64,000 bases of DNA from an uncultured Flavobacteriales bacterium (GTDB lineage Bacteria; Bacteroidota; Bacteroidia; Flavobacteriales_G; Salibacteraceae). This document shows positions 22,717 to 60,566 of the stretch, in pieces. The notes under the pieces are model-generated. The model had not been told where the DNA came from and did no database searches. It saw nothing but the letters and a program-made list of their open reading frames with translations. Both the position numbers and the translations under genes were made by a program. The stretch's first letter is position 1, and the number at the start of each line of letters is the position of its first letter. The stretch spans positions 1 through 64,000 of the forward strand of contig CALCCE010000266.1 in NCBI GenBank assembly GCA_937899835.1. Reading direction: 5' to 3'.

Positions 22717-22750
22717 TGAACCAGAGTTTCAAATCCTGCACTAATATAAA

Positions 22751-22790: not shown

Positions 22791-22807
22791 GTTGATAATA
22801 AGTTAGT

Positions 22808-39679: not shown

Positions 39680-41626
39680 ATGACATTTTGTAACAGACAC
39701 TCCAAACCAATTGGCCTGGCTCTTTTGCCGTGGGGAAAGCAATTGGGACTGTTTTTCGTTAGCTGCTTTTTCTTCGTTGGGCCGTTGGTTTCTACGGTGC
39801 AGGCCCAACAAGCCTCCGACTTCGAAAACCTGGAAGACCTGGGAGAAAAGGGCTTTTTCAAAAATTATATCATCGATAAACTCAAAGCGGAATGGGGGGC
39901 GGTGAAATCGGGCACTCCATTGAGTCTTTCCGGCGGGATTGGGGTAAACATGCGCAGCTACAACGCTTGGGGAGTAGAAGACCGGCAGGCGCCTTTTTTC
40001 TATACGGTCAACGCCAATGCCACCGCCTCTTACTTTAAAATTCAGATTCCCTTTTCGCTGGTCTTGAGCTCACAGGGTACCTCGCAAAATTACCCAACGG
40101 TGGATGCACTTTATCAACCTTTTGTTTCGCTTTGGGAGCAATACACGGGTCGGGTTTCGGGTGCGCAGGAATCGTATGCCCGTTTTGGCATGAGTCCTTT
40201 TTATAAGAGTGTAAAGGTGCACCTCGGCCACCGGTCCATGAATTTTTCGCCCCTCACCATGGCCAATACCAACTTTTTTGGGGTTGGAACGGAGATCACG
40301 GTAAAAAAGAAAATCCGATTGGTGGGCCTTTATGGTCGCTTTGCCGATGCCGTACCCCGCGATTTATCCCTGACTACGCCCAATCCGATTGTGTACGAGC
40401 GGATCGGGCAGGGCGCTAAAGTAGGGTATGGCGATGAAGGCAACTTTGTAGACTTAATATGGTTCACTGCCCGCGACAATGCCAACTCGGTAACGCTTCT
40501 GGCCAACGACACCACCGAGCAAAACGTAAGCCCCGAGGAAAGCCTTGTGTGGGGCATCAACACGCAGTACCAATACAACAAAATTACCTTTAAGTTTGAA
40601 GGCGCTTCCAGCGCCCACTCGCCCAATACCTTTGACCCAGAGGGTGGAAACAGCCCCGCTTTGTATTCCGGTTTTCTCTACAACCGCCGGGTGACGACCA
40701 ACTACAAAACCGCGGTGGATGGTTCGGTTTCGCTGGAGTTGGGCCGATGGGTGCCCAGTGTACAGTACAAACGCATTGACCCGGGTTACCGCTCGTTGGG
40801 CACCTTTTTCTTCAACGATGACTTGGAAAACATCAACGTAGGGTTAGCCAGCTCCTTGTTGGATAACAAGCTACAGGCTCAGGGTGCTTTAGGTGTGCAA
40901 AACAACAACCTCGACCAAACCAAAGAGGCCCGAACCAGTCGAACCATTGGTTCGCTGAATGCCAACCTTACGCTGGGCAAGGTGAATGTAGGGCTCAACT
41001 ATTCCAACTTTACTTCAAGTATTGACTATGTGTTGAACGAGGCGCTCGATTCTCTCAATGCCGTGGTCGTTACCGAAGACGCAGGGGCAAATGTGAGCTA
41101 CACCACCAGCATTGCCAAAGACACCAATGCCTACCAATTGGCTTTTAATTACTCGGCCAATTTGCAAATGGTCAATGACGATGTGGAAGACCCGCTGAGT
41201 TCGGCGGCTTCCGAAATGTTGGTGATCAATGCTTCCCACAGCCTGGCAACGCCTCAGCAGTGGCGCTACACCTTGCGCTTTAACTACAACACCAACGAAT
41301 TGGCCAATACCGTTACCCAGCGCTACGGAGCTGGGGGAGGGGTGGCCAAATCCTTTCTCGATGGCCAGTTGGTGACCGGCATAGACCTCAATTACTTCCT
41401 CAACCGGGCGGGAGACACCCAAAACAATACCCTGAACGGCTCCCTGAAAATCAACTACGTGCTGAAAGAGAAGCACAATTTCAGCCTTGCCACTTCCCTG
41501 GTGAATCAAACCGAACTGGCCGCTGTAGAGTCGGCTCCCAGCTTTTCGGAACTGATTACCACAGTGGGCTATAACTACCGGTTTTCGGTGGCCAGAAAGA
41601 AGAAAGAAGACAAGAAAGCAGATTAG
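39680..41626 (+). CDS. Predicted outer-membrane beta-barrel protein
   Basis: 648 residues from an ATG at 39680, with a long signal peptide ending STVQAQQ. The mature part is a series of alternating polar/hydrophobic strands with aromatic ends (for example YFKIQIPFSLVLSSQ, KKIRLVGLYGRFAD, WRYTLRFNYN), consistent with a beta barrel. The closing strand is ELITTVGYNYRFSV followed by a Lys-rich tail. I recognise no named family. It is 26 nt upstream of the giant reading frame on the same strand, so the two are probably co-transcribed, and it could be an outer-membrane partner for the giant proteins. That is inference. Confidence 0.75.
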   Translation: MTFCNRHSKPIGLALLPWGKQLGLFFVSCFFFVGPLVSTVQAQQASDFENLEDLGEKGFFKNYIIDKLKAEWGAVKSGTPLSLSGGIGVNMRSYNAWGVEDRQAPFFYTVNANATASYFKIQIPFSLVLSSQGTSQNYPTVDALYQPFVSLWEQYTGRVSGAQESYARFGMSPFYKSVKVHLGHRSMNFSPLTMANTNFFGVGTEITVKKKIRLVGLYGRFADAVPRDLSLTTPNPIVYERIGQGAKVGYGDEGNFVDLIWFTARDNANSVTLLANDTTEQNVSPEESLVWGINTQYQYNKITFKFEGASSAHSPNTFDPEGGNSPALYSGFLYNRRVTTNYKTAVDGSVSLELGRWVPSVQYKRIDPGYRSLGTFFFNDDLENINVGLASSLLDNKLQAQGALGVQNNNLDQTKEARTSRTIGSLNANLTLGKVNVGLNYSNFTSSIDYVLNEALDSLNAVVVTEDAGANVSYTTSIAKDTNAYQLAFNYSANLQMVNDDVEDPLSSAASEMLVINASHSLATPQQWRYTLRFNYNTNELANTVTQRYGAGGGVAKSFLDGQLVTGIDLNYFLNRAGDTQNNTLNGSLKINYVLKEKHNFSLATSLVNQTELAAVESAPSFSELITTVGYNYRFSVARKKKEDKKAD

Positions 41627-41652: not shown

Positions 41653-44600
41653 ATGGCTTTGAAAAGAATTTTGAACCGGGTTTTCCCAGTAGCATGGGTC
41701 ATTCTTTTGTTGAGCAGCAGCGCATGGGGACAACAGGTCTTCCCGGTAAAGGGAAGCGGTAACCTCATCCCTCCCCATTCCCTCAGTTTATCGGCCTACG
41801 CCGTGGAGCGAGCGAACGACATTCAGCTCAACCTTACCCTCGACGATCCAGTAGAGCTTTCGCGACAAGTGACGTTGCGGCTTTCGGTCCAAAACAACGG
41901 TATTGAGGTGCTGCGCACCAACCCCAACTTCGCGCCCCCGCCGATCACCCTTTTCCAGTTTCAAACCCTTACCCTCAGCGGGGCCGACCTCGCACCGTAT
42001 TTCGATCCCGCTAACCTCACTGGTGTGCAGGGCAATTCCAATTCTCAGGAATTACCCGAGGGGCTTAACAGCATTTGTTTTGAGGTGGTTGATCTGGAGC
42101 GCAACAAAGTGATTTCCAACAATATTTGCTTGTTGGGAAATTTTCGGTACAACCAACCTCCCTTGCCGCAAGTGCCGGCTTGTGGCGATGTGGTGCAATT
42201 TCAGGAAACGCAGAATTACCTGTTCAACTGGCAGCCCTTGCACTTAGGGTCGGGCAATTCGCCTACGCTGGTCAATTATGAGTTTGAGCTGGTGCAACTG
42301 CCTACCAATGTGACCGATCCCAACGACCAGTTTGACTTTGCCCTGCCGATTTATAACACCGTAACGGCTTCGCCAAGCTTGTTGTATACTGCAGCCGAAC
42401 CCCAATTGGAGGTGGGTAAGAACTACGCCTGGCGCGTGCGCGCCTTCGATCCCACCATTTCCAACCTTTTTCTCAACGAGGGTAAATCACTGGTGTGTCC
42501 CTTTTCCCTCAGCAACAACCCTTCGCAGCAAAACACCACCAACAACTATAGCTGTACCACTTTTATGGTGGATTTTGGGCCGGTAAAAAGTGGGAAATCC
42601 GATGGCACCATCCTTACCGGTGATTTGGTAGACCTGGGCTTTTTTGAAATGGAAGTCCTGCAAATTAACGGGCAAGGCAATGGCTATTCCGGCGAGGGGC
42701 TGGTGGCCGTTCCTTTCTTGAACACCAACGTGAAAGTGGAGTTCAAAAACCTCCGCATCAACTCAGAGAATCGGGTGTATGCGGCCGAAAGTGTAGTGGC
42801 CATCAACGAATTAACTGCCACCAACTACACGAACTTGGAGGTGCAAACCCAGGAATGGTCCAGCCTGTTTGGCCCTGCGTTTACTGATGCGCTGGATCAA
42901 TTTCGAACCAGCAGCAGCGGAGCTACCCACTTGGCCGCCAACAACAACATCAGCGATAAAACCCCAATTGGGCTGCCCTTGTATTTTGGCACCAATACCC
43001 AGCCGGTGGTGGTGACCCAAATGCGGTTCACGCCCCGCCAGGCCAAATTTGATTTATTGACCTATGTTCCAGGCTCCAATTCCGACCTGGCGTACTTCGG
43101 TTCGGGGGTAGCCGCTACGCCCGGCGGATTGGTGACCGATGCTCAGTTGGCCCTCATTGCCGAGCAAACGGTACAAACCACTTCGGGCAAGTCGTTTGTG
43201 TTGAGCGATTACCAATCTTCCAACGCCAGCCTGATCGGAGTCGATTGTCAAGGCGTATTGGCCAACGAGTGGGGCGGTTCGTACCAATTGCCGCATCCCA
43301 AATTTCAAAACACCGGCCAGGAAGAAGCGGTGGTACCCTTTACGGGCAAGGTCAACGATTTGGATCAACTGGTGGCGGAGACTCGCGGTTATGAGGTGAT
43401 TTCTACAGCCTATAGCGGAGTGCTTTTCACCGCGAAAAAAGGCCTGCTTGACCTTTCATCCACTTCCAACAGCCCCGACCAAACGTTTCCGGCCTTTTAC
43501 ACCGGCGATCAATCCAAGCAATTTCAAGGAGTAAGCAGTGCCTCCGGCACGATGGTCATGTCCAAAAAATGGGACATCCTGGGCAAGCAGCGCTCCATTG
43601 TGCTGAAAAACGGGGCGTTTTTGATTCACGAGGAAGACCTCTACGCTGAATTTTCCGGAACCAATCTGCTGAAACTGAAAGAGGGCACCATTGCCGATTG
43701 GCACTACAGTGTGAAAACCATGGATGTGCGCCTCGCTCCAAATGACGAGGAGATTAGCATTTCCGGGGAAACGGCAATCCCGCCCTTTGCCGATCCGCTC
43801 GACTACCGAGGCATTTTCGAAACCCAGGGGCAAAACCTGCGGGTCAACAGCGAAATTACTTCGCTGAACCAAGCGCTTGAAATCGACTTTCTGCAAGCCA
43901 CCCTGGCGCTGGACAGTTCTTCTACGCTGGAATTTGCAACCAGCCAAATCGGCAACGAGAGTCTTTTGATGGCCAATGCGGTGTTGAACGGGCAACTGTC
44001 GATGGACTTGGCGGCCTCCACGGTAGAAGGTAAGCTCGAAGCCGATGCGGTGACCAACCTTAAAGCGGTGCTGGGAACCGACAACCTGCAAATTCAAATC
44101 GATACCTTGGGCATTGAAGGGTTGACCATCGATCCCTTTGCTGCCCTGGAAAAACGGTATTCCATTGGACGCATCACCCCCAACCGTAGCATCACCATTG
44201 GAGGGGAAGAGGTGGATCTCAGTGAGTTCACGTTGCAGTATGCCGAATCCAACGATTCTACCACCTTGACCTTTTCGCTGAAACTGGCGAAAGGCGTCAA
44301 CAACATCTACCTTGATTTTATTGGACTGGCGGATTCTAAAGGCAAATACGAGCTTGAAAACATCAATATGCGCGTGGCGCGGGCCAATTGCGATTGCAAC
44401 AATGTCCTGGATGCTTCTACCGGATATTTTCCGCACCGCGAGGATGGATACGACCTGATGGCCAGTGCCGACCCCAAAGCTCCGTTTCCGTCGGCTAACT
44501 TCCCGGTGTCCAACAATGTATTGCGACTCACCCTTTCCGACAGCTATTCGGCCCACATCAACATGCAGGGCAACCACGCCAAAGGCAAAAGCACTTTCTC

Positions 44601-46629
44601 CACCTCACGCAACGAGCTGGATGCGAACGATGCGAAAAACAACGACCTCTCGGTGGCGCACGACCTTCCGCTAAACCTTACGCCCTACCTCGACGATATT
44701 TTTACTGGCTTTAGTATGCTGCCCAATGCCCAATTGTATTTGGAAGGGCTGGAAGTAGTGGGCAGCGAAACCAAGATGAAATTGCGCCTGCTGGTTCCCG
44801 AATCGGTGCTTTCGCCTCCCAATGAAGGTCCGTGGTTTCAGTTTGTGGCGGAGGATGTGCTTTCCAAACCCTACGCGCTTGGGCTGGACAATAAAGACAA
44901 CCAGGGCAACATTCAAGGCGTCCGCTTTTTCCTTGAAAACGGCTCTTCCAACACGTATGGAGAATACAATTTCCGATACCAGTTGCTGGAAGAGTACTCC
45001 ATGGAGGAAGGCGAAGGCAGCTACGTTCATTTCACCTGTGGCGGCTTTCAGCAGTTTCATGTCAAGGGCCGTTACGAAGTGCCCAGTGATGGTTTGCAAT
45101 TGCTGTATGCCGTAGACCCCGCCGATTCGTCGGCTACGGATGCACTGGTATTTGACTTTTTGATCGAGGGGAACAACCTCACCAGCTTTGTAGCTCCGCT
45201 CCTCGATCACGGTTCGGTAGACAGCGGGGTGCTTACCGGAAAACAGTTTGCCACCACCACCGATGCTGCCCAGTATTTCGAAATGATGGGCGCCTACATC
45301 GATACCGATCCTTACAACAATGCGGAGGGTCACGAAGCGACCAAGAGTTTTAAGGGCCTCTATTTCGATCAGTTGGATGTGGTTTTTCGGGGCTTTACCT
45401 ACGACAGCCTGAACCTGCAAGGCACCAACGTGGACGCTGGAAATTTCGCCAGCGACAACGGAGAACTGATTGTTCCGGCCCGCGACTTTGCCTTCACGCC
45501 CGGACAGGGATTAAGTGGTTCCTTTTTGATCGAAATGTCCGACCCCCAAGCGCCTTTTCTTACCGGAGAATTGGGTGGGTGGACCTATGCCATGACCCGC
45601 CTGGAGTACGAATTGGATAAGAACGTGATCAAGAAACGGGTGATTACCGGTGGCATCAACATTCCCATCATTCAAGATGAGTTGACCCCTTTCACGGCCA
45701 ACATCACCTACGATGCTAAATACAAGGTGCCCAATGCGAACCTGAACGTTAAGGTGTCGGACGCCTTTCAATTGCACCCCTTGTCCATCATGAGTGTAGA
45801 GGTAGATGGGGAAAGGATCACCGGAGCCAACCTGATGTTTGACATCGGCGACCCCTTCACTGGCGAATCGCCTTCTAACATCGTGCTCAACTGGATTATT
45901 TCTCCTAACTACAATGGCTTTTTGCCCTACGCCAAATTGAATGGAGCGCTGTCCATTGCCGCTCCTTCTGCTCCCGACGGCACCTCGGGCGGCTTGAGTC
46001 CAGCGCTATCCATTGCCCGCTTGCCCTTTCAGGATTGGGAGATCAACAACCCGAAAAACGAGAAATGCGCCAATGTGGATGCCTCCAAACTCAAAGGCAT
46101 TCGCAGCATGAACATCGGTGCCTTCAGCTTTGGGACAGATGCTTCCGAAGATGGGGTAGGGGACTACCCTTTCCAAATCAGTGATGTGAAATTTGCCTGC
46201 GTGCCGCCCGCCAAACCCAATGATCCACTGCAATACAAGTTGGATTTAACCGCCTCCGTTAACTTGGCGGGAGAGTCTTTTTTTGGAGGTGGAGACGATG
46301 AAGGAGATGACAATTCAACAACCGCCTCTGGAAATAGCTCCGGAAGTGCTTCCGGCAGCAATACCTCCTCCGGCAGCAATTCGGGAACCGGTGCCACCGC
46401 TGGGGATAAGGAAAGCAACTTAGAAACCGCCAGCCTTTCGGGTGAAGTCAGCTTATCCATCTTGTTTGATAGCAAGGTGAACGATGCGGGAGACGGGTAC
46501 GACCTCGATTACGACAAAATTCAGCTCAACAAACTGAAAGTCGAAGGCGAGTTTGCTGCGGTGAAACTGAAAGGTTCTCTGCTGTTTTTCAGAGGAGATA
46601 GCGTGGGGGGCGATGCGACCCGTGGGTAG
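41653..46629 (+). CDS. Giant secreted protein, N-terminal part with TANFOR-like domain (ends at in-frame TAG)
   Basis: 1658 residues. Signal peptide: PVAWVILLLSSSAWGQQ. Residues about 28-180 (FPVKGSGNLIPPHSLSLSAY ... LTLSGADLAPYFDPANLTGV ... LPEGLNSICFEVVDLERN ... NYAWRVRAFDPT) look like the TANFOR domain of Bacteroidota; I recall this family only in outline. A long beta-rich region follows with repeated FxF/YxL strands, then a Gly/Ser/Asn linker at about 1543-1590. The frame stops at TAG 46627-46629, but the reading frame continues three codons later into the next 4,630-codon frame with no change of character. The part before the stop (KVEGEFAAVKLKGSLLFFRG) reads as the beginning of a module whose remainder (GFSLEAIAMFG, YRYFMVDFLG) lies after it. 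It is thus the first quarter of one gene. Confidence 0.8.
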   Translation: MALKRILNRVFPVAWVILLLSSSAWGQQVFPVKGSGNLIPPHSLSLSAYAVERANDIQLNLTLDDPVELSRQVTLRLSVQNNGIEVLRTNPNFAPPPITLFQFQTLTLSGADLAPYFDPANLTGVQGNSNSQELPEGLNSICFEVVDLERNKVISNNICLLGNFRYNQPPLPQVPACGDVVQFQETQNYLFNWQPLHLGSGNSPTLVNYEFELVQLPTNVTDPNDQFDFALPIYNTVTASPSLLYTAAEPQLEVGKNYAWRVRAFDPTISNLFLNEGKSLVCPFSLSNNPSQQNTTNNYSCTTFMVDFGPVKSGKSDGTILTGDLVDLGFFEMEVLQINGQGNGYSGEGLVAVPFLNTNVKVEFKNLRINSENRVYAAESVVAINELTATNYTNLEVQTQEWSSLFGPAFTDALDQFRTSSSGATHLAANNNISDKTPIGLPLYFGTNTQPVVVTQMRFTPRQAKFDLLTYVPGSNSDLAYFGSGVAATPGGLVTDAQLALIAEQTVQTTSGKSFVLSDYQSSNASLIGVDCQGVLANEWGGSYQLPHPKFQNTGQEEAVVPFTGKVNDLDQLVAETRGYEVISTAYSGVLFTAKKGLLDLSSTSNSPDQTFPAFYTGDQSKQFQGVSSASGTMVMSKKWDILGKQRSIVLKNGAFLIHEEDLYAEFSGTNLLKLKEGTIADWHYSVKTMDVRLAPNDEEISISGETAIPPFADPLDYRGIFETQGQNLRVNSEITSLNQALEIDFLQATLALDSSSTLEFATSQIGNESLLMANAVLNGQLSMDLAASTVEGKLEADAVTNLKAVLGTDNLQIQIDTLGIEGLTIDPFAALEKRYSIGRITPNRSITIGGEEVDLSEFTLQYAESNDSTTLTFSLKLAKGVNNIYLDFIGLADSKGKYELENINMRVARANCDCNNVLDASTGYFPHREDGYDLMASADPKAPFPSANFPVSNNVLRLTLSDSYSAHINMQGNHAKGKSTFSTSRNELDANDAKNNDLSVAHDLPLNLTPYLDDIFTGFSMLPNAQLYLEGLEVVGSETKMKLRLLVPESVLSPPNEGPWFQFVAEDVLSKPYALGLDNKDNQGNIQGVRFFLENGSSNTYGEYNFRYQLLEEYSMEEGEGSYVHFTCGGFQQFHVKGRYEVPSDGLQLLYAVDPADSSATDALVFDFLIEGNNLTSFVAPLLDHGSVDSGVLTGKQFATTTDAAQYFEMMGAYIDTDPYNNAEGHEATKSFKGLYFDQLDVVFRGFTYDSLNLQGTNVDAGNFASDNGELIVPARDFAFTPGQGLSGSFLIEMSDPQAPFLTGELGGWTYAMTRLEYELDKNVIKKRVITGGINIPIIQDELTPFTANITYDAKYKVPNANLNVKVSDAFQLHPLSIMSVEVDGERITGANLMFDIGDPFTGESPSNIVLNWIISPNYNGFLPYAKLNGALSIAAPSAPDGTSGGLSPALSIARLPFQDWEINNPKNEKCANVDASKLKGIRSMNIGAFSFGTDASEDGVGDYPFQISDVKFACVPPAKPNDPLQYKLDLTASVNLAGESFFGGGDDEGDDNSTTASGNSSGSASGSNTSSGSNSGTGATAGDKESNLETASLSGEVSLSILFDSKVNDAGDGYDLDYDKIQLNKLKVEGEFAAVKLKGSLLFFRGDSVGGDATRG
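46627..46629 (+). other. In-frame amber codon splitting the giant reading frame
   Basis: CGT GGG TAG TTC AAC ATT GTG: the TAG is the only stop between 41653 and 60531. A single base change (CAG or TGG to TAG) would explain it. Sequencing error, nonsense mutation or programmed readthrough are all possible. Confidence 0.9.
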
Positions 46630-46638
46630 TTCAACATT

Positions 46639-49600
46639 GTGATTGGAGGAGATGGAGTGCCGGATGATCCTAACGGTGGCAGCAAGTCCGCCACCAGTAT
46701 GGGTGGTTCCAAAGCCATGGGTTTTTCGTTGGAGGCCATCGCCATGTTTGGCAACACCAAATACAAATCCAAAAAGGAGCAGTACAGCAATGCCTACCGC
46801 TACTTCATGGTCGATTTCCTGGGCGTGGCGGAACAGGGGATTCCACTTTCCCCCTTGCCCGTTTCTGTCAATGGATTAGGGGGAGGTTTGTACTACAACG
46901 TAACGGCCGCTAACAAAGAATTGCACGCCACTGCCTTTGGTAAACCAGGGGCTTCCACCTTTGGGGAGGGCGCAGAACCGCTCGAAGTGGATTTGGCCGA
47001 ACTCTACAATAACCGTAACCAAGGCGATAATACCACCACCAGCACTTCCAACACCACGACTAACCCACCGATAGGCGGAGGTGCGGGAGCCGCCGGGGCC
47101 GCCGGATCTTCCAAGAACCGTGGGAACAACCGGAATACCACCGAAAACGGAAATAACAGTAATTCCAGCGATGGAGACGATGACGATGGAGACGATGACA
47201 GTGACGACCCCGACCCTGCCGATGAGGCGGCCATGTCGTTGCGCTCGGGCTATGAATACACCCCCAGCCGAGGAACGATAGGCTTGTACATGTCCACCGT
47301 ATTGGCGCTTACCCCACAACCACTCGTTGTGGCTGAGCCTTCCGTTGGGGTGGAGATTGTGGCCAACAACAACAATGGAGGCATTGGCATTCGGAAAGTC
47401 ACCCTTTCGGGAAATGCCTACTTGAAACCGCCAAGCGTAATCGACCGGGCCGATGCCGAGTTCACCGGTGTTTTGAACTCAGAAGTCGACTTCGTAAACA
47501 ACTACTTCAACGCTTCGGTCTCGGTAACTTCCAACACCGAACTCCTGACCATTAATGAGGGTGAAATCAGCTTTCATGCCCAGTTTGGAACACCGGCTGA
47601 AGCCTCTCAATTCAAGGCAGGCGAGTGGCGCGTCAAAATTGGAAGTCCTCAACAGCCGATGGGTGGAACCTTCCCGATACCTGCTACAGGCAACGCGGTG
47701 AGTTTGAGTGTAAATGCCTATTTGCAAACGGGCCACCACATTGATAACATTCTGCCGATTGATCAGGTAGTGCCCGGCTGGGATGCCGGTGCACCCTCCG
47801 ATTTTGGTAAGCGCAAATCGGGCATGTCGAGCGGAAAAGGACTGATTCTGGGCGCCTCCTTTGGTATTCCTGAAACGCAATACTCCTTCGCCATCTTTTA
47901 TGCCTCTATCTACGCCAAGATGGGTTTTGACCTTTCGATTAAGCAATACGAAGGGCTGATTGATTGTGACGGAGACGGCAGGGCAGAACCTTTTGGAATT
48001 GATAATTGGTATGCCAAAGGTCGGTTGTACGCAGCTGCCGGAGCCGACATCGGAATGCAAGTCAACCTAAACATTGGTTTGGTGAAGATCGAAAAGAAGG
48101 TCTCGATTTTTGATGCGGCTGCGCTGGTGAACCTCAAGTTTGAAATGCCCAACCCGTCCTATTTCGCGGGCAACATCCGGGGGCGCTTCTCGGTTATGGG
48201 GGGCGTTGTAAGCGGGAAATTCAACTTTAAATGGGAAGCGGGTGAACGGTGTGCCGGAATGTTGACCAACTCTCCGGTGGGCGACATAGAAGTGATTTCG
48301 GAGACCTTTCCCGAAAACCAAGAACAGGCTCCTGTTTATGTGGTGCCCAGTGTTGCCTTTGATATCCCCGTCAACATTCCCATCAGTGTGATGGATGAAA
48401 AGGGGAAAACTGAAAGTTGGACCCCCAGGTTGTCCCACTTTTTGATTCAGGAATATAATCCACAGGCCGAAGTGGATTGGTCAAAGCACGATCAGCAAGA
48501 TAAATACTGGGTCAGTTTGCCGTACAGCTTTACGGCTGCTCCCAATGGCTTGTCGGCTAAAATCAACATCGATCAGTTTCTGGCGCCCAACACCCGGGGC
48601 AAATACCGTTTGTACGCCCAGGTCGATTGGTACCGGGATAACCGTACGCAATCTGAGGGAGCAGAGGTAAAGCGCATTCCCTTCAAAACCGGAGAAGGAA
48701 TTTCCAACATTGTGCAAGAGATTGTGCAGGTGCAAGCTCCAGGCCACCTGCAGCGCTACTGGCACAAGGGCTATGCAGAACCCAAGATTGTACTCACCCA
48801 CGACATGGGCGAACAAGATGTGTTCCGGCGTTCAGAAACCATTGAGGAAGGCGAAGACGAAGGACTGGAAATTGAATACGACTACAAAGTAAAGCTCACC
48901 CCGGTGGCTAATCCGGAGCAGGCTCTTTTCCTGCCCATCGACGAGTACCCGAAAGCTACCAACTACGAGCAAGAGGTGATCCGCTACAAAAACGTAGGGC
49001 AATTCGAGATTCCTTATGTATCGATGGAAGCCCGGTCGGGTAAAGAAATTCGCTTTGTTTCGATGAACGAACGCGACCTGGATAAAGGGGCCATCTATGC
49101 GTTGCAAGTCATCCGCGAGCCCACCAACCTCGATGGCGCCAGTGATGCGGTGGTGCAACAATCGGAAAATGTGTACACCGTAGACGCCAACGGCAACCCC
49201 ACCAATGAGGTAGCCTACGTCAAGCAAATCACCAGCCTGGGAGAAAGCGCGAAAGCCGGCAACCTCAAGTTGAAGTACACCGAGATTATTTACACCACGC
49301 ATTTTGGGGTAAGTCGGTACGAATCCCTGGCCGACAAATGGGAGAGCGTTACCGTTACCGGGCATTCCCAGCCCGTAACCCCCGATGCCAGCTATAATTA
49401 TGTGCGCACGCCCAATCCCAACAACGACCCGGAGCGAGTAGCCAATTTGTATCACAAAGGATCGCCGACCAGCAGTACGTTCCACTTTATTGAAGGAAAC
49501 CTGGAAGGGTTTGATCAATACGATGTGGTTCGCCTCAATAAAAACCTGCAATTCGATGCAGACATCCATCCCAATGAACTCTTTCTCTATGGCAACCTCT

Positions 49601-52600
49601 ACATGGAGCACATTCAGGAAGAGCACCGCAAAGTGGGTAAATTGAAAAACCCGAATACCCCGGTATTTTTAACGTGGCCAAACAAAACCCCAACCGACCC
49701 CAAATACGGCAGCACCGAGTGGGGCAGTGAGCTGGTATACAATAATGAGTCATTGGGGTATAATAATAGTCGTTGGCTGGATGTGCCTCCCGCAGATTGG
49801 ACTCATTTGAACATTGGGGATAACACCAAACAGTGTTGGGGAAATGCGGTTGGTATTTACACGTTCGAACTCTTTTATCGCGAAGCCTATCACAGTTCCA
49901 GTAAATCCGTGGCAGGGGAAGCGAATAATACGGATGAAGGAACCGCCTATGCCTTCTTGTCTGATTTTTTCAAACCCCACTGGTATTGGGAGCTAGATTA
50001 TGCCTACGAGATCAAGCAAGTGGCCGACCACCACAATTTGCTTTCCGAGCAGGAAATAGCGTCCGGCTTATTGGAAGACCGTATCGTAAGCCAGCCGGAA
50101 ATGCGGCTTAAATCGGCTCAGCAGGCCACTTTGTTGTTGCGAAACTCGCGCAACCAGGTGATTGACATGCAGGCCAAAACGCTACAAGCCCCCGCTTGGT
50201 TTGGCGTAAACAAGCATATTGACCGGTTTAAGGATTTTACCTTTGTTGTCAACCCTAAGTGGGAACCTGTACACCAACGGATCGTTCGTTTTACTCACGG
50301 TGGTTCGTCCAACAATACTGTTTGGATGGGGGAGACCGCCCCCTGGGTGGAAAACATGGAGCTTCGGCTGAAGTTTCCCGATATCAGTACCTGGTCTGCC
50401 ATGGACGAGCGGCTGACTTTGGACCAGCGCAACAACTACACCAACAAAATGCTGGTGGTGCCCGATGTGTGGGATGACGGAGACGGCACCAGCTACCCAC
50501 CTCAAGGAACCGTGGTACAACCGGCTGCAGAAGCTCCCGCCATTGAAGCGGTAATTTACAAACCTGCCGTAGACCCGAACAACGAGGCCAACCTCTCCCT
50601 GGAATATCCCCGCACCTGGAACAATGGAGTGCAGGAACTCATTGTTGTGAACCAACGGGGAGAAAAAACCTACCATCAGGTGGGCCAGGAAATCTTGTTG
50701 GCCAAGGCTGAATTGGTGGACTCGGTTGAACAACGCACCGGCCAGCAATTATCGCCCAACCAGCCTTTGGTGTTGCTCACCGACAACCGCTCGGGAGAAC
50801 GTGGAGCGAGTGTGGAAACAACGACCTTCACCGGCAAAGTAATCATGCGTTACGGAGACGAATATTACCTGGCCGATCCCCCTAATTCGAAACTCGAAAT
50901 GACCGCCGGCAGCAACTGGACCGGTACCATCCTTTTTACCAAATACAGCAACACGAATGCGGTAGCAGCCGAAGTGGCCCGCACCGACACGATGAACGTT
51001 TCCCCGGCTACCGTCCATCAAAACATTTTTGGCAAAGTTGCCCTCACCCGCCTTTGGTTAAAAGACGACAACACCATTCGGGTCGCGCATCCTGAAAATG
51101 GCGGCCTGTACGATTATCAGGTTCCCGAAGCGGTATCGATCCATCACCCCCAAACCAACCGCCGATTGGGATTGATCTATACTCAAGGTGGCTTAGCCGA
51201 CCATGAAGTAAAGGTGCAATACGGCTATCAAAACGTGCTGGCAGGAAAGGGGCAAGTGTACACCGAGGTGAAGGTGGATGAAGTGGCCGACCTAAACCTG
51301 AGCTACGGCCAAACCTTCCAGCTGGCGCTTCGAATGGCCAACGGAAAGACCGTGTATCAGACCATTGGCACCAAAGATTGGAACCGGGGGTGGATTGATG
51401 TAAACCCGGTTACGCAGGCCACAAGAAACGATTTTACCCGCTTTGACGGGTACGCCAACGTCAACTACGGAGGAGCTTTGTCGGTGGCCGAAAGCCAATT
51501 GGTAAGCGATGTAGCCGCTGGAAAATCACCGATGCCGTTGTTGTTTGCCAGCGAAGAAAACCTGCACCTGGAATATTCAACCAACCTGGATAACCCTTCC
51601 GGTGCAACCACCACACAGCCCGACATCATCAACGACAACTACAAAGCCATGGTCATCACCAATGCCGCCAATGAGCTGGTGTTGTTCCGAAGCAAGGCCA
51701 TTAGCTATGCGCCCGCTTACCTCAAGGAAAACGGCACTTACGATTGGGAGCGCTTTTACCAGGATCAAAACCTGAATGCCGGGTATTATCCGGTCAATGA
51801 AAACGATTGGTCGAAAGTCAACTACGTAGGGATGCCGCTCAACGGCCAACAACTGTTGAACAAAGCCACCTATCCCGAAGTCAAGGCCTATTTAATCAAA
51901 ACCGACAATTCGGTGGTCAGCAGCAAGGTCAACATGAACGCCACCAACTTTGATGGCCCCACCCACTACCGGTCGTTTACCGCTGCATCCAAAGATGCCT
52001 TGAACGAAGTGCAGGCAGCTTTTCCCAAAGCCATTTTTTCCTTGGAGCCGCAAGGTGAAATCCGCTCCGAATCCCCCTTGGGGGCAACCTTGAGCAGCGA
52101 TATTCAGCACATCGCCATTCTAAGAGACGGATTGCGGGTATTTGTAGGCACCATCGGGGAAAACGGGCAGTTGGCAGGAACGCACTACCTCTACGACCGC
52201 AACGAGGCCGTGGCAGGAGGAGCCGTCAACGACCCATTGGCGCTTGGCTTTGGAAGCCGCACCAACGTAAGTTCCCTGTCGTTGGAAGCGGATGCCACCT
52301 ACACGCTCTACCTCCAAACCAACACCGGAGACGTGTTTGAGCAAACCATCACCGACAACGATTGGAGCAGGCGTAGCTTCTTCGTCACCAAGCCTTCCAG
52401 CGTTACCCAAGAAATTTTCCAACCCGAAGCAGGGGAGTGGGCCTACGTAGCGTATGACCAACAAGACGAGGTCCATCGCCTTTTCTATACCGACTATGCG
52501 GGCGATTTGGTGACCCCCAATGCCGACTTGCGGCAAGTGGTGGTTAATGCCGGTGGACAGTTGGATGCGTATTATGTTTCCTTTGGTGCCCTTGAAAAGG

Positions 52601-55600
52601 CAAACGGAGAATTGGCCGTGAAGCCCAACCAAGAGGGCCTGCCGCTGGGCGGAATGCACCTTACCGGGGAAAGTGGGGAGCTCTACCTGGTGTATGAGCG
52701 GGTAAACAAAGTAGATATCTTTAAAATAGAACTCTCCGGTGAGGGAACGTTTACCTACGCGCAACCGGTGGCCCAAATTCCAAGTAGCCTGAATGCGCAA
52801 TTGCCCATTGCTGCCCTGCAACTGCAAAAGACCTCCGGAAGCATTATTGATTTTGCCACCAACACGACCAACATCCTTTCTGGTTTGTCCCTCTGGCTCA
52901 ATGAATGGGAAAGCTCAAAACCAATTGGCAACCTCATGTTGGCTGCCAACGGCATCACCAATTGGCGTTACGATTACGAAAGCAATTCGACCACTTACCC
53001 TTATAACCTGACCGGAGGAGATGTACAATTATTCAAACGTAAGGTGGTGCAGCAAAACTTGTCCACCAATGAGGAGTTGACGGCTTACCTGAGCTATCAG
53101 GATGCACAGGCGGGCAATGTACAGGGCCAAATGAGCCTCACCCCGGCGGATTGGGAGGCGGGCGTAAAGTTCATCTTCAAAGAGAATACCCCACCTCAGC
53201 AAGGCTTTGTGATGAACGACCAATTGTATAAAGCTTGGGGCTTTAGCGTGGGGAGCAACAGTGGCCAGAAGACCCACCTGTTTCAACTCAATGACAATAA
53301 TTCTACCGATCAGGAAAAAACCTATGAGCTTACCGCACCCGTGCTACTGGCCAATGGCAACGACTTGCATTCGCTGTGGTTGCCCAACACCGATTTGGCC
53401 TACCACTCCGGGCAGGAACTTTCGGGCGCTATCACCACCGCTTGGACCCACATCGAGGGCAAGTGGTACACCGCCGGTCAAGTAGCCGGACAACGCTTTG
53501 CGCTAAAAGCGTCCACCACTGCTGGCCCTGGAAACCTGAGTTACCTCTTGCTCGATGCCCAAGGCTACATCTTACAAGGCGGAGCGTTCACCGACCTGGA
53601 CGGAACTGATCTGGAAGGCCTTAGCCTTTCCGGCAAGCAACTGGTCGTACGCTATAAAGGCAACCTGTTCCAAGCCAACATTCAAATCAGTTCGGGTACG
53701 CGTACGGTAACCTGGACCAAAATCACCGATCCCAACGACTGGAAAAAAGGCTTTTTGCCCTATCCCCAGTTCGGTTTCCAACTGCGCAACAACCGCGCGC
53801 TGCACGTGGCCGGAAGCGGAAGTGAAGACGCTGAGCTGTATGTCTTTAAAGCCGATGGCAGCCTGAAAGCCATGTGGAGCAGTCAGTTTTCGGGTAATCC
53901 GAATGAGGTGGTGTACCAAACCTTCCCGAAGCAAGGCAGTTTGGTGGGTGTTTTGGAAACCTCCGACCAACTCGTTTTGCGCTACAACAACCAATTTGTG
54001 CAACATAGTGGAGCCGACTGGAGCAGTGATCGGTTCGCCATCAATTCCGATGCTCTTTTTTCCACCACCATCCCAAGTTCCTATGCCGCTAAAAAGGAGG
54101 TGCTGTGGGTCTACGCCCAACAAGACAAAAGCGGATTGCAGGTAGGCAACCTGCTGGTGGGAAACACCATTCAAAACCTGAAAGTGCTCGACCGGCAGGG
54201 AAGAACCGTTTACCTGTTGAAAAAGCAATCCGGCAAAGACACCTACACTGCCTGGACCTACACGTTTCAGGGTGATGAAGCCGATTATTATATCGAAAAG
54301 TCCTCTGCCGATCGGCCCTTGAATACCGCTTCCAACGGTTTTGACTACCCCATTGATCTGGCCATCCCTTACAGCGCTTGGGGCGAACTCTATGTAGAGT
54401 GCACCGAAGGCACCTACCGGGTAGCCCTGCGTAACCTGCAAGGGGGCGACCGAGCCGCAGCCGATGCGTACCCGACCAACCCAAACCCTGAACAGGACAA
54501 GTTGAAGGCCGCCAACGTGGCCGAACCCGAAGACAAAAACCTGACGGTAAGCCTTTACCTCGATACCGAAACCCATCGGGTGTATTTCCAGAATGCGCGC
54601 GAGCACATTGAAAAAGTCGCTATCGTGCGCGATGGCACCCAAGCGTGGTACTACCGGAGCCTTACCGATGGGCTCGATTACGCTTCGGACGGTACACCCT
54701 CCAAGGCTTGTACCCGCATCCCCAAAAACGGAGAAGCCTTTTCGCTGCCTGACAATGACGTGTTTGTGCTCATTCAATACCTGAACGGCAAAACCCAAAC
54801 CGTAGATTTTAGCCAATCCAACTACTGGGTGCTCAAACCCAATGAAGGAGACAACTCAGCGCTGGCGCTGAACTACCCCGGAATAGATGCCGGAGAAACT
54901 GCCCTGGTGTACTTGACCGAATTCGGATTGGCTTTTTCGAGCCTCAGCAACGTGGGCAACGTGGCGGTGGAAAATGCTGCCGACAACCAACAAATCTTTT
55001 GGTCGAAGTCCAAAGAAATCACCCCGCACGAGCCAATTTTGGGCTTCCCGACTGGAGTGCAATACCAATTGTATTTTGCCCTGGACGGGATTTTGCAAGA
55101 AGCCCTAATCGATGCCAACTCCTGTGGGGCGATTTTGTACCAACCCTCCAACAAAGACCTGTCGGTGTTGAACCCGCAGGCCTCCGAAGAGCTATTGCGT
55201 CAGGTACCGGTGAGCACCGCCATCTACACCAAGCAAAATGAATTGATGGGCGGCTACATGGGTTCCACTGCGCAAGGAAGCGGCAAGCAAGTGCAATACC
55301 ACCGCTTGTTGAATCCAGACGGAGGAAACTATCCGTTTACTACGCGCAACATCACCCTGCGCGACCTTACTGCTGCCGAAATAGATTTTATGAACAGTGC
55401 GGAGGTCGTGCTCACCAGCAGCAATTACGAAGACTGGCGCACCAACGACATCTTGCAAGGCGCCACCGATTACATCCAGGTAGCTGAATTGGACAATGGT
55501 GACATCATCAAGCTCTATACCGACAGCGAAGGCATTTCGCGCTACAGTGAGGCCGATGCCAGCTACTTTCCCAACCAAGTGCAACTGAGCGGCACCGATG

Positions 55601-58600
55601 CGAGCAATGTGGTGTGGCCTGCTAACCAAATAAAGCCGGAAAAACTGGTGGCTTACAACCACTACGGGCAGCGGATTCTGTATGCTGATGCGAAAGAAAA
55701 ACATACCTACGCGAGTGCGTCCAATGGGCTCACCTACCGCGATGGCATCACCACCGCCAACACCTTGCCCACAGGAGAAACTACCTTGGTAAACGCCACC
55801 GCCTTGATTCCAGCCCAACCTGGAAGTTCTGCTTCCAATCAACGGGTAACGGTTTTTGCCGAAACGTTTGTGAACGATTTTCAACAAGATGGCCGGGTGG
55901 TGAAGGTGAAAAAGCCGGTGCTGGTCAAAGCACAACCCGGCACCACTCAAACGGTGTTTTTGTACCCTTTAACTTCGATTGACCAACGCACGGCGGCAGG
56001 GCAGAACTACACACTCGGCACCGATCCGGCATTTGTGCCCTACAAAGCCACGAAAATTCCTTGGAACGATTTGCTGGAACCTGAATCAGGAGTGGTGCTC
56101 AAAACCTTGAACGATCCAACAGCCGGATCGGTAACGCCCCAAACCTACTTGGTTTTTAACGATGGCAACGGCACCAGCAGCGCCTTTGAAGAAGTTTATG
56201 AAATCAACAACCTATCGGTGCAGGAGCGCTATGGCAAAAGTGGGACCAACCGCCTGTATACGCCCGGAACGCCTAAACCCTCGGATGCCTTCAATGGCCA
56301 ATACATTGCAGTAAACCATGCTGTATCCGGTTTGGAAACCGGCAATTACAACAGCCTAATTCTGAAAAAAGGGGGCGATGATTATGTGTGGTTCAAACAA
56401 GACCATCAATTGGGCTACCATGGCGTATTGGAGCCCCTTCACGACCCCAATCGCTATTTGAAGCCCCGCTTTGACATTGAGTTACACCCTGGCCAGCGTT
56501 TGGTGTTGACTAATGCCCAGCAAAATCAGGACGAGATTGACAAGATCTTCATTTACGGAAAGAAAACCGGGTTCTATTCCTGGCAGTTGCTTGATACGAA
56601 GTTTAACGCTGGCACCAACCAAGCTACCGGAGATACCTATTTGTCCTCCAGCCTGGTGAATGACTTGCGGGGTGATTTTGTCGCCTATGAAGAACTCATG
56701 GTTGCGGTGCTGTTGAAAAATGGTCAGGGCTACACCCGGCCTTTTGTCAAGTCGCTGCCCGTGGACTCGGTGATGGGATTTAATATCTCTACCCAAAAAT
56801 CGTCTGAGCCCAGGGACTTGGAGTTCACGGAGAACGAAAACGCCACCTTGGCCGTTCGGGGAGAATACCTCTATTTCCACGGCAACAGTATCGCGAACGT
56901 CGGTCAAAACCAGTTTCAAGAAGTTTTGATTAAGCGTGGAGAAACCATTGTTGCCCACTCCTTCAATAGTGTCATAGTGCTCAACCGTTTCCCCAACGAT
57001 GAGCAGGAGTTTTTTCCACTTACGGTATATGTCAAAGACAATTTCGGGAACATTTACCAGCGCACTTTTAATTCCTGGGAGGCTGATGATGACTTTGTGT
57101 TAGGGATAGTAAAAGAGCGTTCCTCGGTTCAGTGGTTTTCTAATAACTATCATAATTGTGGCGCTATCAATTTATCGGTTCTTTATGGGTCGGAGACCAT
57201 TGACTGGAAAGAGGGAACGAGACAAATTTCGAAATACTTCTATCCTGAGAGCTATTCGTTCCATTTTAAGTTAGATGGGGTCAACGAAGCTCAAATCTTT
57301 GAAAAAGGGAACCAGGTTATAGAAGTCTCTGTCACTGATAAGGTATTGCGGGTGCTGGGTGATGATTATCCGGTCTCCTGGTTAACCAATGGCTGGCACC
57401 ATCTTGTAGTAAACCGTTATGGGAATGTGCTTCTTGATGGCATTCAGGTTTCCCTCGATCATAGGGTCAAAATTACTGGGACGGAGCAGTCGGTTGTGTT
57501 GGGCGCTGAGCAGGTATTTTTGGACAATATTCGTGTCACTGAGAATAGGTATTCCGGATCGGTTTATGGCTTAACACCAACCAGCACCGAGGTTGAGGAT
57601 ACGAAATTGATGTATTTCAATGCTTTTGACTCAGAAGTCCCCTTGATTGAAGAAACGTCAAAAATTGTATTGAATGTCCCTTCTTGCGGCAATTCTCCGG
57701 CCACGATTCCCAATGATGTCCCTCAATCCCCCCACGAGCAGCAGGCTAATTCCACAAACAACACTGTGTTAGATGCTACTGGGTGGACTGAAGCTTGGGG
57801 GGAACTGGTAGAGGTCTCTGGAGAGGCAAGTAATCAACCCGAATACCTCAACTCAAATTACGGCAAGGAAGAAACCATGCAGTTGTGGTTTGGTTATAAA
57901 AGTGGGGCAGAATTGAACACCCCTATCTTTAAATGGGCAGGCTCCTCTGGGCACCAGACCTTTAGTCATCGTCAGTTGCACCTCAAAGATGCTCAAACCC
58001 TGGTGATCAATGGTTCAATTGAGATAGATGTCTCTGGCATTATTCAGACCCAGGCATCTCCCGATGGCATTGTCTGGAATCACCTCACTTTAACCGGGAT
58101 TACTACACGACCGGCCTATCAGCAATTTACCATGCCTCCGGAGAACTGGTGCGATTTGTACCTGAATGGACATCATGTGCAACGGTTGAATGTTAGCGTT
58201 ACCCACCGCAATAGTTGGTTTTCCACTTTGCCGGGTTACAACTTTGGCCATTTGTATTATGACGACATCACCAGTTACGCGTATGCTATGTCTTTTGAGG
58301 AGGTACGCAGCAGCCTTCAAACGAAGCCGATGAATACTGCCCACTCCTACCTCGATTTTCAGGGGGTAGACCTATCCAGGGGAAGCTATCTGCCGCGCTT
58401 TCAAAAAGGAAACCGTTACACGTTTCATAGAAAGGACCGTTTCCGAAAATCAACCAGCGATTTTAACAAATCGTCATTTAGCACAGTCAATAAAGTTTAT
58501 GAAGTTGAGCAAACAGCCTATCAGTTTGTAGGTACAAATCCCATCACGGTCGATGATGCAGATCTTCGCTATTCCGACTTTACCTGGACCGCATGGGTGA

Positions 58601-60531
58601 AACCAACCGGAAAGGGGAAAGTAGTTTCCTTCTCCAGTGTGGTAGAATGGGGCTTGAAGGAGCAAAATAATGCCTTGAAACCCTACTTTAAAACCAGTTC
58701 AGGGGTTGAGGTAGAAAGCACTGCTGAAGTTCAAAAAGATGCCTGGAATCACCTTGGGCTGGTGGTAAAAGAGGGTGAAATCAGCTTGTTTGTCAATGGC
58801 AATCCTGCGTCTGTAGGTATTCCTGTGGCAGGAGGAAGCACTAATCTTATCCGTTTACTTGCCGGGCAAATGATCATAGGAGGAGAGTTTGAGGCTGAAA
58901 TTGATGGGTTGAGTTTTTACAACATTGGCTTCGAGCTTTCCGAAATCAGAAAAGCCTACTTCGGCGAACTACAACCACTGTCGAGCCACCTGGTTTATGA
59001 CTACGATTTCAACAAAAAGGAGTTGTTCTACAAGCGGATATCTTCTGGGGAGGTAGTTCGAAGCCCACAAACAGCTTTAATAGAGCGCTTGAATGGCAAG
59101 GCCAACGGGGTCTTGAACAATCAAGTCACTATGTATAATGGACAGGAAATCCTTTCAACTTCCAGCGAGTTTTGGCCCATCTCCGACCGCCAACCCGTCA
59201 CCCGCCCCGCTTCGGCAGAGGTGAGCAACTATGCGCTAAATAACACAGGTGGGCTCAGTGCCAAACTCACTATCCCGCTAGAGGGTAGTGGAACGACCAA
59301 AAGCCTTTCGTTTTGGTTGAAAACCTCCAGTTCCTGTGAAGATTTCATGGACTTGGTAGGCCGTGACCTTCTTATTGAAAACGCTGGCAGAAAAACGTGG
59401 AGTGAAGTTTTCTCTCTTGATAACGGTACCTGGCAGCACCTGGTGATGACATCGGAGAACGGAAGAGTGGTGCTTTATAAAAACGGGGTACGCTTGGAAG
59501 AGAGGGGGGCGTTCAATGCCATTTACAACGCGAAAGCCATTGAGTTTTTGGGCAACCCCAATTGCGGTGCTGAAGTGGATGAAATATCGGTTTGGGAAGG
59601 AACGCTGGAGCAGTCGCAAGTGCAGGAACTGTACCACCATGGCGTGAATGCACGGGCTGAAAACCTGATTGCCCACTTCAGTTTTGACAACGACAACAAC
59701 GAAAGTGGTGCGGTGCTCAATTCCAAATTGGGCGGACCTCGGGCCACCATCAGCGGCAACTACCTCGACCTGCGGCAGCCTTCTGACCATGCCTACGATC
59801 GCGCCACCACCGTACCTCCTGCTGCGGAAGATTACGTGTATGTGGCCTCCAAGGAAGCGTCTTTGATCCCCAATGAAAACTGGAACGGTGGCAATTACCA
59901 AGTAGCCAGCATCTACGCCCAGGGGCGGACTTCGGAATTGTTGGGCCTGGGACGCAATGAAAGCCCTCAAAACGCCACTTTCGGAACCTGGCTCAAGTTA
60001 AAAGCGCTGCCGGAAGGCGATACCGAAGTGCGGGAAATCGCGCGCTGCCTCATTACGTTGTACCGGAAAGGCAACCAACTGGGTATTGGCTCCACTGCGC
60101 AGGTGAATTGGGCAGAAAAAGCGATCCCGCTGGACCGGTGGGTGTACGTGCATTTCACGTATTCCATCGCAGGTACACAACTCTACATTGATCTTCAACC
60201 CCAATTCACAACTCTGCCGAGCGTGACTTCGCTCACGGGTGATTTCCGACTCGGAATCGACTTTGAAGGCTACCTGGAAAACACCGTGGTATGGAACAGC
60301 CAGCGTTCGGAAGAACACATGTACCAAGACCTGCTGCAACAGGCTGAGGGGAGTTTTGCTACCAATCAGCCCGGGTTGATGCTGTTCTATCAATACAACA
60401 TGGACAAGCTGGGAGCATGGAAGCTGACCGATACCCAAGGCCGCTACGACCTCAGGTTGTTCAACATCAACCGGCAGAAAATTTTCCTTCAAGATACTGA
60501 ACCGGCAGAGGTTCCTTTACCAATGAATTAA
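46639..60531 (+). CDS. Giant secreted protein, C-terminal part with DW-signature modules and LamG domains
   Basis: 4,630 residues in the same frame as the gene at 41653, with no signal peptide and only a GTG as formal start; it is the continuation past the TAG at 46627. Order: about 1-110 completes the module interrupted by the stop. An acidic Asn/Gly/Asp-rich linker lies at 127-195. Beta-rich domains (ASFGIPETQYSFAIFYASIY) precede a linker into Ig-like segments. About 1570-2940 contains irregular modules with an NDW/KDW signature (KTVYQTIGTKDWNRG, DVFEQTITDNDWSRR, DPNDWKKG). From about 3490 to the end there are five LamG (concanavalin-like) modules such as FTWTAWVKPTG, SLSFWLKTSS and FGTWLKLKALP. 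No T9SS sorting domain is seen at its C-terminus. Codons 3380-4180 differ in base composition from the rest. An exposed surface or extracellular polymer role is inferred. Confidence 0.75.
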   Translation: MIGGDGVPDDPNGGSKSATSMGGSKAMGFSLEAIAMFGNTKYKSKKEQYSNAYRYFMVDFLGVAEQGIPLSPLPVSVNGLGGGLYYNVTAANKELHATAFGKPGASTFGEGAEPLEVDLAELYNNRNQGDNTTTSTSNTTTNPPIGGGAGAAGAAGSSKNRGNNRNTTENGNNSNSSDGDDDDGDDDSDDPDPADEAAMSLRSGYEYTPSRGTIGLYMSTVLALTPQPLVVAEPSVGVEIVANNNNGGIGIRKVTLSGNAYLKPPSVIDRADAEFTGVLNSEVDFVNNYFNASVSVTSNTELLTINEGEISFHAQFGTPAEASQFKAGEWRVKIGSPQQPMGGTFPIPATGNAVSLSVNAYLQTGHHIDNILPIDQVVPGWDAGAPSDFGKRKSGMSSGKGLILGASFGIPETQYSFAIFYASIYAKMGFDLSIKQYEGLIDCDGDGRAEPFGIDNWYAKGRLYAAAGADIGMQVNLNIGLVKIEKKVSIFDAAALVNLKFEMPNPSYFAGNIRGRFSVMGGVVSGKFNFKWEAGERCAGMLTNSPVGDIEVISETFPENQEQAPVYVVPSVAFDIPVNIPISVMDEKGKTESWTPRLSHFLIQEYNPQAEVDWSKHDQQDKYWVSLPYSFTAAPNGLSAKINIDQFLAPNTRGKYRLYAQVDWYRDNRTQSEGAEVKRIPFKTGEGISNIVQEIVQVQAPGHLQRYWHKGYAEPKIVLTHDMGEQDVFRRSETIEEGEDEGLEIEYDYKVKLTPVANPEQALFLPIDEYPKATNYEQEVIRYKNVGQFEIPYVSMEARSGKEIRFVSMNERDLDKGAIYALQVIREPTNLDGASDAVVQQSENVYTVDANGNPTNEVAYVKQITSLGESAKAGNLKLKYTEIIYTTHFGVSRYESLADKWESVTVTGHSQPVTPDASYNYVRTPNPNNDPERVANLYHKGSPTSSTFHFIEGNLEGFDQYDVVRLNKNLQFDADIHPNELFLYGNLYMEHIQEEHRKVGKLKNPNTPVFLTWPNKTPTDPKYGSTEWGSELVYNNESLGYNNSRWLDVPPADWTHLNIGDNTKQCWGNAVGIYTFELFYREAYHSSSKSVAGEANNTDEGTAYAFLSDFFKPHWYWELDYAYEIKQVADHHNLLSEQEIASGLLEDRIVSQPEMRLKSAQQATLLLRNSRNQVIDMQAKTLQAPAWFGVNKHIDRFKDFTFVVNPKWEPVHQRIVRFTHGGSSNNTVWMGETAPWVENMELRLKFPDISTWSAMDERLTLDQRNNYTNKMLVVPDVWDDGDGTSYPPQGTVVQPAAEAPAIEAVIYKPAVDPNNEANLSLEYPRTWNNGVQELIVVNQRGEKTYHQVGQEILLAKAELVDSVEQRTGQQLSPNQPLVLLTDNRSGERGASVETTTFTGKVIMRYGDEYYLADPPNSKLEMTAGSNWTGTILFTKYSNTNAVAAEVARTDTMNVSPATVHQNIFGKVALTRLWLKDDNTIRVAHPENGGLYDYQVPEAVSIHHPQTNRRLGLIYTQGGLADHEVKVQYGYQNVLAGKGQVYTEVKVDEVADLNLSYGQTFQLALRMANGKTVYQTIGTKDWNRGWIDVNPVTQATRNDFTRFDGYANVNYGGALSVAESQLVSDVAAGKSPMPLLFASEENLHLEYSTNLDNPSGATTTQPDIINDNYKAMVITNAANELVLFRSKAISYAPAYLKENGTYDWERFYQDQNLNAGYYPVNENDWSKVNYVGMPLNGQQLLNKATYPEVKAYLIKTDNSVVSSKVNMNATNFDGPTHYRSFTAASKDALNEVQAAFPKAIFSLEPQGEIRSESPLGATLSSDIQHIAILRDGLRVFVGTIGENGQLAGTHYLYDRNEAVAGGAVNDPLALGFGSRTNVSSLSLEADATYTLYLQTNTGDVFEQTITDNDWSRRSFFVTKPSSVTQEIFQPEAGEWAYVAYDQQDEVHRLFYTDYAGDLVTPNADLRQVVVNAGGQLDAYYVSFGALEKANGELAVKPNQEGLPLGGMHLTGESGELYLVYERVNKVDIFKIELSGEGTFTYAQPVAQIPSSLNAQLPIAALQLQKTSGSIIDFATNTTNILSGLSLWLNEWESSKPIGNLMLAANGITNWRYDYESNSTTYPYNLTGGDVQLFKRKVVQQNLSTNEELTAYLSYQDAQAGNVQGQMSLTPADWEAGVKFIFKENTPPQQGFVMNDQLYKAWGFSVGSNSGQKTHLFQLNDNNSTDQEKTYELTAPVLLANGNDLHSLWLPNTDLAYHSGQELSGAITTAWTHIEGKWYTAGQVAGQRFALKASTTAGPGNLSYLLLDAQGYILQGGAFTDLDGTDLEGLSLSGKQLVVRYKGNLFQANIQISSGTRTVTWTKITDPNDWKKGFLPYPQFGFQLRNNRALHVAGSGSEDAELYVFKADGSLKAMWSSQFSGNPNEVVYQTFPKQGSLVGVLETSDQLVLRYNNQFVQHSGADWSSDRFAINSDALFSTTIPSSYAAKKEVLWVYAQQDKSGLQVGNLLVGNTIQNLKVLDRQGRTVYLLKKQSGKDTYTAWTYTFQGDEADYYIEKSSADRPLNTASNGFDYPIDLAIPYSAWGELYVECTEGTYRVALRNLQGGDRAAADAYPTNPNPEQDKLKAANVAEPEDKNLTVSLYLDTETHRVYFQNAREHIEKVAIVRDGTQAWYYRSLTDGLDYASDGTPSKACTRIPKNGEAFSLPDNDVFVLIQYLNGKTQTVDFSQSNYWVLKPNEGDNSALALNYPGIDAGETALVYLTEFGLAFSSLSNVGNVAVENAADNQQIFWSKSKEITPHEPILGFPTGVQYQLYFALDGILQEALIDANSCGAILYQPSNKDLSVLNPQASEELLRQVPVSTAIYTKQNELMGGYMGSTAQGSGKQVQYHRLLNPDGGNYPFTTRNITLRDLTAAEIDFMNSAEVVLTSSNYEDWRTNDILQGATDYIQVAELDNGDIIKLYTDSEGISRYSEADASYFPNQVQLSGTDASNVVWPANQIKPEKLVAYNHYGQRILYADAKEKHTYASASNGLTYRDGITTANTLPTGETTLVNATALIPAQPGSSASNQRVTVFAETFVNDFQQDGRVVKVKKPVLVKAQPGTTQTVFLYPLTSIDQRTAAGQNYTLGTDPAFVPYKATKIPWNDLLEPESGVVLKTLNDPTAGSVTPQTYLVFNDGNGTSSAFEEVYEINNLSVQERYGKSGTNRLYTPGTPKPSDAFNGQYIAVNHAVSGLETGNYNSLILKKGGDDYVWFKQDHQLGYHGVLEPLHDPNRYLKPRFDIELHPGQRLVLTNAQQNQDEIDKIFIYGKKTGFYSWQLLDTKFNAGTNQATGDTYLSSSLVNDLRGDFVAYEELMVAVLLKNGQGYTRPFVKSLPVDSVMGFNISTQKSSEPRDLEFTENENATLAVRGEYLYFHGNSIANVGQNQFQEVLIKRGETIVAHSFNSVIVLNRFPNDEQEFFPLTVYVKDNFGNIYQRTFNSWEADDDFVLGIVKERSSVQWFSNNYHNCGAINLSVLYGSETIDWKEGTRQISKYFYPESYSFHFKLDGVNEAQIFEKGNQVIEVSVTDKVLRVLGDDYPVSWLTNGWHHLVVNRYGNVLLDGIQVSLDHRVKITGTEQSVVLGAEQVFLDNIRVTENRYSGSVYGLTPTSTEVEDTKLMYFNAFDSEVPLIEETSKIVLNVPSCGNSPATIPNDVPQSPHEQQANSTNNTVLDATGWTEAWGELVEVSGEASNQPEYLNSNYGKEETMQLWFGYKSGAELNTPIFKWAGSSGHQTFSHRQLHLKDAQTLVINGSIEIDVSGIIQTQASPDGIVWNHLTLTGITTRPAYQQFTMPPENWCDLYLNGHHVQRLNVSVTHRNSWFSTLPGYNFGHLYYDDITSYAYAMSFEEVRSSLQTKPMNTAHSYLDFQGVDLSRGSYLPRFQKGNRYTFHRKDRFRKSTSDFNKSSFSTVNKVYEVEQTAYQFVGTNPITVDDADLRYSDFTWTAWVKPTGKGKVVSFSSVVEWGLKEQNNALKPYFKTSSGVEVESTAEVQKDAWNHLGLVVKEGEISLFVNGNPASVGIPVAGGSTNLIRLLAGQMIIGGEFEAEIDGLSFYNIGFELSEIRKAYFGELQPLSSHLVYDYDFNKKELFYKRISSGEVVRSPQTALIERLNGKANGVLNNQVTMYNGQEILSTSSEFWPISDRQPVTRPASAEVSNYALNNTGGLSAKLTIPLEGSGTTKSLSFWLKTSSSCEDFMDLVGRDLLIENAGRKTWSEVFSLDNGTWQHLVMTSENGRVVLYKNGVRLEERGAFNAIYNAKAIEFLGNPNCGAEVDEISVWEGTLEQSQVQELYHHGVNARAENLIAHFSFDNDNNESGAVLNSKLGGPRATISGNYLDLRQPSDHAYDRATTVPPAAEDYVYVASKEASLIPNENWNGGNYQVASIYAQGRTSELLGLGRNESPQNATFGTWLKLKALPEGDTEVREIARCLITLYRKGNQLGIGSTAQVNWAEKAIPLDRWVYVHFTYSIAGTQLYIDLQPQFTTLPSVTSLTGDFRLGIDFEGYLENTVVWNSQRSEEHMYQDLLQQAEGSFATNQPGLMLFYQYNMDKLGAWKLTDTQGRYDLRLFNINRQKIFLQDTEPAEVPLPMN

Positions 60532-60566
60532 TACCCCTTGTGAAGTTTGAAAAAGCGTACCGAGAA

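Follow-up and report, generated by a model that had tools for sequence, protein, structure and literature searches.

Why does one amber codon interrupt what otherwise reads as a single giant surface-protein gene? The interruption lies in a 6.9 Mb draft genome of 307 contigs, and the window in which we analysed it spans 64,000 nucleotides, bases 1-64000 of a contig 74,884 bases long. An earlier note on this DNA had described two reading frames, 41653-46629 and 46639-60531, which share one phase and are parted only by TAG TTC AAC ATT. The sequence confirms this arrangement: the TAG occupies positions 46627-46629 of the + strand and is private to the source genome among the genomes compared, and the codons TTC AAC ATT to its right are followed by an in-frame GTG at 46639. 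The note's gene of about 6,290 codons with one amber codon was likewise borne out: gene B comprises 1,658 + 1 + 4,633 codons in one phase with the TAG alone between its two frames (6,292 codons), and its relatives are uninterrupted. The features on which the analysis rests are as follows.

39680..41626, + strand: gene A, a 648-aa probable outer-membrane protein with a signal peptide; first gene of the operon, ending TAG TAA.
41653..46626, + strand: gene B before the stop, 1,658 codons from an ATG at 41653, with a signal peptide at its start and N-terminal homologues in genomes of the same family.
46498..46920, + strand: conserved beta-strand module of gene B, residues 1616-1756, split by the TAG at residue 1659.
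46627..46629, + strand: the in-frame TAG, private to the source genome.
46630..60528, + strand: gene B after the stop, 4,633 codons, with C-terminal Laminin_G_3 domains and no signal peptide of its own; collinear with a single gene of the relative genome G051.
60529..60531, + strand: TAA, the normal end of gene B.
60540..64000, continuing to about base 68000 of the contig, + strand: LamG gene 3' of B, 2,486 aa, with LamG repeats and its own signal peptide.

The string bearing the TAG is present as a single, base-identical copy in the whole source genome. Three other TAG-terminated genes in the window run for 16, 4 and 0 in-frame codons to the next stop, versus 4,633 in gene B. Since so long a run follows the TAG and the TAG splits one protein module, chance adjacency of two unrelated frames is unlikely.

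Comparison with relatives shows that the two halves descend from a single gene. An initial single-sequence search returned just 1 to 3 weak matches over the junction, and it was an alignment of four sequences that revealed the family, whose B junction module occurs in 44 of 394 other Bacteroidia genomes sampled. Distant homologues in other Bacteroidia genomes align over the stop. In a profile of 49 homologues built without the window, positions 8-49 correspond to the last 42 residues of the first half and positions 58-113 to the opening of the second, bearing out the claim that the module begun before the stop continues after it. The whole module scores 65 bits against this leave-one-out profile when X is placed at the stop. 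All 47 other module matches, from the 44 genomes, pass the site without a stop. The frame is also uninterrupted in the four same-family genomes that have the module (4/4; two of the four aligned), and the B frame is uninterrupted in 25 of 25 named loci. Neither the 47 matches nor the 25 loci include a relative with two genes in place of B. One genome, G051, encodes a single 1,823-aa protein collinear with both halves through segments 34-718, 895-998 (which spans the stop) and 1018-1394. Viral contigs queried with the first half yielded no relative. That the halves of gene B are one gene by ancestry is well supported by these alignments.

The stop falls inside the conserved module, at neither a domain border nor a natural end, as seen both in the leave-one-out profile and in the predicted strand: in a model of a relative's B core the stop column is residue 130, within a predicted strand at 124-135. 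A stop is found at this column in none of the 49 distinct homologues, all of which come from other genera; they carry instead S (9), N (6), G (6), K (5), E (4), M (3), A (3), Q (3), F (2), H (2), T (2), L (2), R (1) and Y (1), and never W. Because relatives have 14 different residues and no stop there, the stop is private and the site is tolerant. The earlier expectation of a CAG or TGG codon in relatives does not hold: the column has no preference for Q or W. At such a tolerant, variable position, what is seen here is just what a random nonsense change or a base error would produce.

A gene fission that produced two functional proteins, the second starting 3' of the TAG, has in its favour a GTG at 46657 with a GGAGGAGATGGA stretch upstream, and in-frame ATGs at 46699, 46717 and 46744. 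However, none of these ATGs opens a signal peptide, and no signal peptide was found at starts within 200 codons after the TAG, whereas genes A, B, LamG and C each begin with a hydrophobic signal segment; the LamG gene at 60540, a true gene boundary, serves as the comparison case for the TAG junction. The earlier note had thus been right that the second part has no signal peptide and wrong that it has no ATG. Since no signal peptide follows the TAG, the second half of gene B alone would probably not be exported. The split module and strand, the missing second signal peptide and the single B gene in relatives together led us to reject fission, which we consider extremely improbable.

Gene B sits in the middle of a conserved Bacteroidia arrangement in which it, the giant, is flanked by A, a barrel-like protein, and C, an fn3 protein (examined here over window positions 39680-60531 together with contig bases 60001-74884). 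Gene A lies directly upstream and C downstream of a single B in more than 20 relatives, and the A protein measures 540-650 residues across the arrangement. The B of this window exceeds every other member seen in length, the full-length relatives spanning about 950 to 3,670 codons. In the source genome an extra protein, the 2,486-residue LamG protein, composed mostly of LamG repeats, sits between B and C, where the closely examined relatives have no gene. Elsewhere in the window (14085-27058, minus strand) three long genes in succession carry CHU_C type IX secretion signals, and one of them has SprB repeats.

Pfam gave no match for gene A and has no family for the B core; Pfam and NCBIfam scans of both B halves returned only Laminin_G_3, near the C-terminus, and a sub-threshold FimA match. 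By sequence, neither A nor B has a relative among solved structures. AlphaFold models of a 977-aa B relative and of its core (mean pLDDT 74.6 and 78.9, pTM 0.44 and 0.65) both contain long antiparallel strands. Their structural matches are diffuse, covering many outer-membrane barrels as well as LptD, with Z up to ~13, rmsd mostly 7-16 Å and Foldseek TM ~0.2. The models suggest that the short B protein may be a barrel-like or large-sheet protein, and name no family.

The frame beyond the stop gives an estimate of how recent the break is. Codon usage before and after the TAG correlates at r = 0.97, as expected if the gene was intact until recently. In the second half, 1,775 single-base changes would create a stop; were it unconstrained, the probability of finding none would be 50% at ~0.12% neutral divergence and would drop below 5% above ~0.5%. 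The absence of further stops had been taken to argue for very recent origin or for continued function. The first part stands, at no more than ~0.5% neutral divergence; the second does not, because zero further stops over an unconstrained frame become unlikely only past that divergence, so that the intact frame shows recency and not function. A recent break agrees with the report that bacterial in-frame stops last chiefly at the scale of polymorphism within populations, over short evolutionary times (Belinky et al. 2021, PMC7918605).

The earlier note had also raised the possibility that the TAG is suppressed or read through. If it were sometimes decoded as an amino acid, whether by readthrough, a suppressor tRNA or pyrrolysine, full-length protein would be made on purpose. 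The intact frame with normal codon usage past the TAG fits such decoding, as do the five G-rich bases 5' of the stop (GTGGG), given that G-rich bases before a stop raise readthrough in E. coli (PMC11126739), and the report that in-frame stops under purifying selection are common in bacteria (PMC7918605). The source genome, however, has an ordinary termination machinery: RF1 is present at 499.8 bits, above the curated cut-off. The PylS match reaches just 20.4 bits against a cut-off of 178; among control genomes, 13 of 14 match at the E threshold and only 1 lies above the cut-off. No tRNA with a CUA anticodon is among those recovered, an incomplete list that has no Val tRNA and scores 150 of 355 candidates, and a pattern search of the source genome found no amber tRNA. 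TAG also terminates three other genes in the window, each backed by a second stop nearby: gene A, where TAA follows immediately; a FUR gene; and a CHU_C protein with a domain that runs up to its end.

Three tRNA genes at C265:57700-58300 of the source genome, adjacent to one another, look atypical: one, with a CGAT loop, is left unassigned by ARAGORN between Ser and Ile, and the others are a 75-base Leu-CAG without a long variable arm and a Lys-CTT. A 122-base tRNA-family match at C125:20626-20747 (53 bits) has no ARAGORN call and is longer by ~48 bases, which apparently lie in the region of the anticodon arm.

The context of the stop in gene B also argues against decoding. TAG is less leaky than TGA in E. 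coli, not more. The TAG is followed by T, a base that promotes termination in E. coli (PMC11126739). No stimulatory RNA structure was detected after the TAG (folding against shuffles, z = 0.27 and 0.34 over 60-100 bases, and also -0.19), and Rfam has nothing near the stop. Stop codons were looked for in a study of giant genes, and nothing was found. Phylogeny is decisive: across the homologues that column never holds a stop, and it is occupied by sense codons in every other genome compared. Recoding of the gene B TAG is not supported, and we consider purposeful decoding very improbable. A related scheme, in which the TAG is real and tolerated and low-level readthrough would yield long and short forms of one giant surface protein, is likewise very improbable.

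The evidence thus leads to the remaining proposal of the earlier note, that the gene is freshly broken or the assembly is in error: the stop is private, the frame is otherwise intact and decoding is unsupported. A one-base error, or a base from a minor strain, could have entered the assembly while the gene is intact in cells. The draft is in 307 contigs, no further lesion occurs in the 18.9 kb gene, and the stop is confined to this genome at a column tolerant of many residues. A wrong draft base would look identical to a real nonsense mutation, and the absence of decay would be expected under an error as well. On the other hand, no visible break was seen in some 25 other genes of the window, 34 LamG matches genome-wide have no internal stop, and the TAG lies outside any long homopolymer. 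The unbroken window genes and the stop-free LamG matches make the consensus look clean, and for this reason we favour a real, recent nonsense allele and regard an error as rather unlikely; these weights are a judgement, not a measurement.

Gene B is, in our reading, probably a giant surface-protein gene that carries one very recent nonsense substitution and whose translation terminates at the TAG. We infer a real base in the cells and a truncated, non-functional product. With normal termination at the TAG, the secreted fragment would comprise 1,658 residues (26% of the protein) and would break off partway through a beta-strand in the conserved module. The other 4,633 residues would not reach the surface, as no signal peptide lies past the TAG. 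The event is an ordinary one, most likely either a fresh gene-breaking mutation or a single-base draft error and not a new decoding trick.

Several points of use follow. Unless reads or a second strain are at hand, not much can be read into a lone stop within a giant draft-genome gene. Automatic annotation would mistakenly list gene B as two genes. If the stop is real and tolerated, the locus offers a natural experiment on whether surface proteins of great length are dispensable or sufficient at very low levels. The conserved and uncharacterised A-B-C operon is a more useful by-product than the stop itself.

Gene B resembles the nonsense-interrupted genes of Belinky et al. 2021 (PMC7918605) in having a single in-frame stop and being otherwise intact. 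It differs from them in that their stops are common to orthologues of at least two species, whereas the gene B stop is found in one genome. In pyrrolysine decoding UAG is read as sense, but the source genome is without PylS. SprB is a giant surface protein of gliding Bacteroidota. Unlike SprB, gene B has no SprB repeats, and scanning both halves with Pfam and NCBIfam recognised no T9SS C-terminal domain; like SprB, its product would be giant and secreted, from a Bacteroidota genome whose surface repertoire is of the T9SS type, seen in this window as SprB-repeat and CHU_C proteins.
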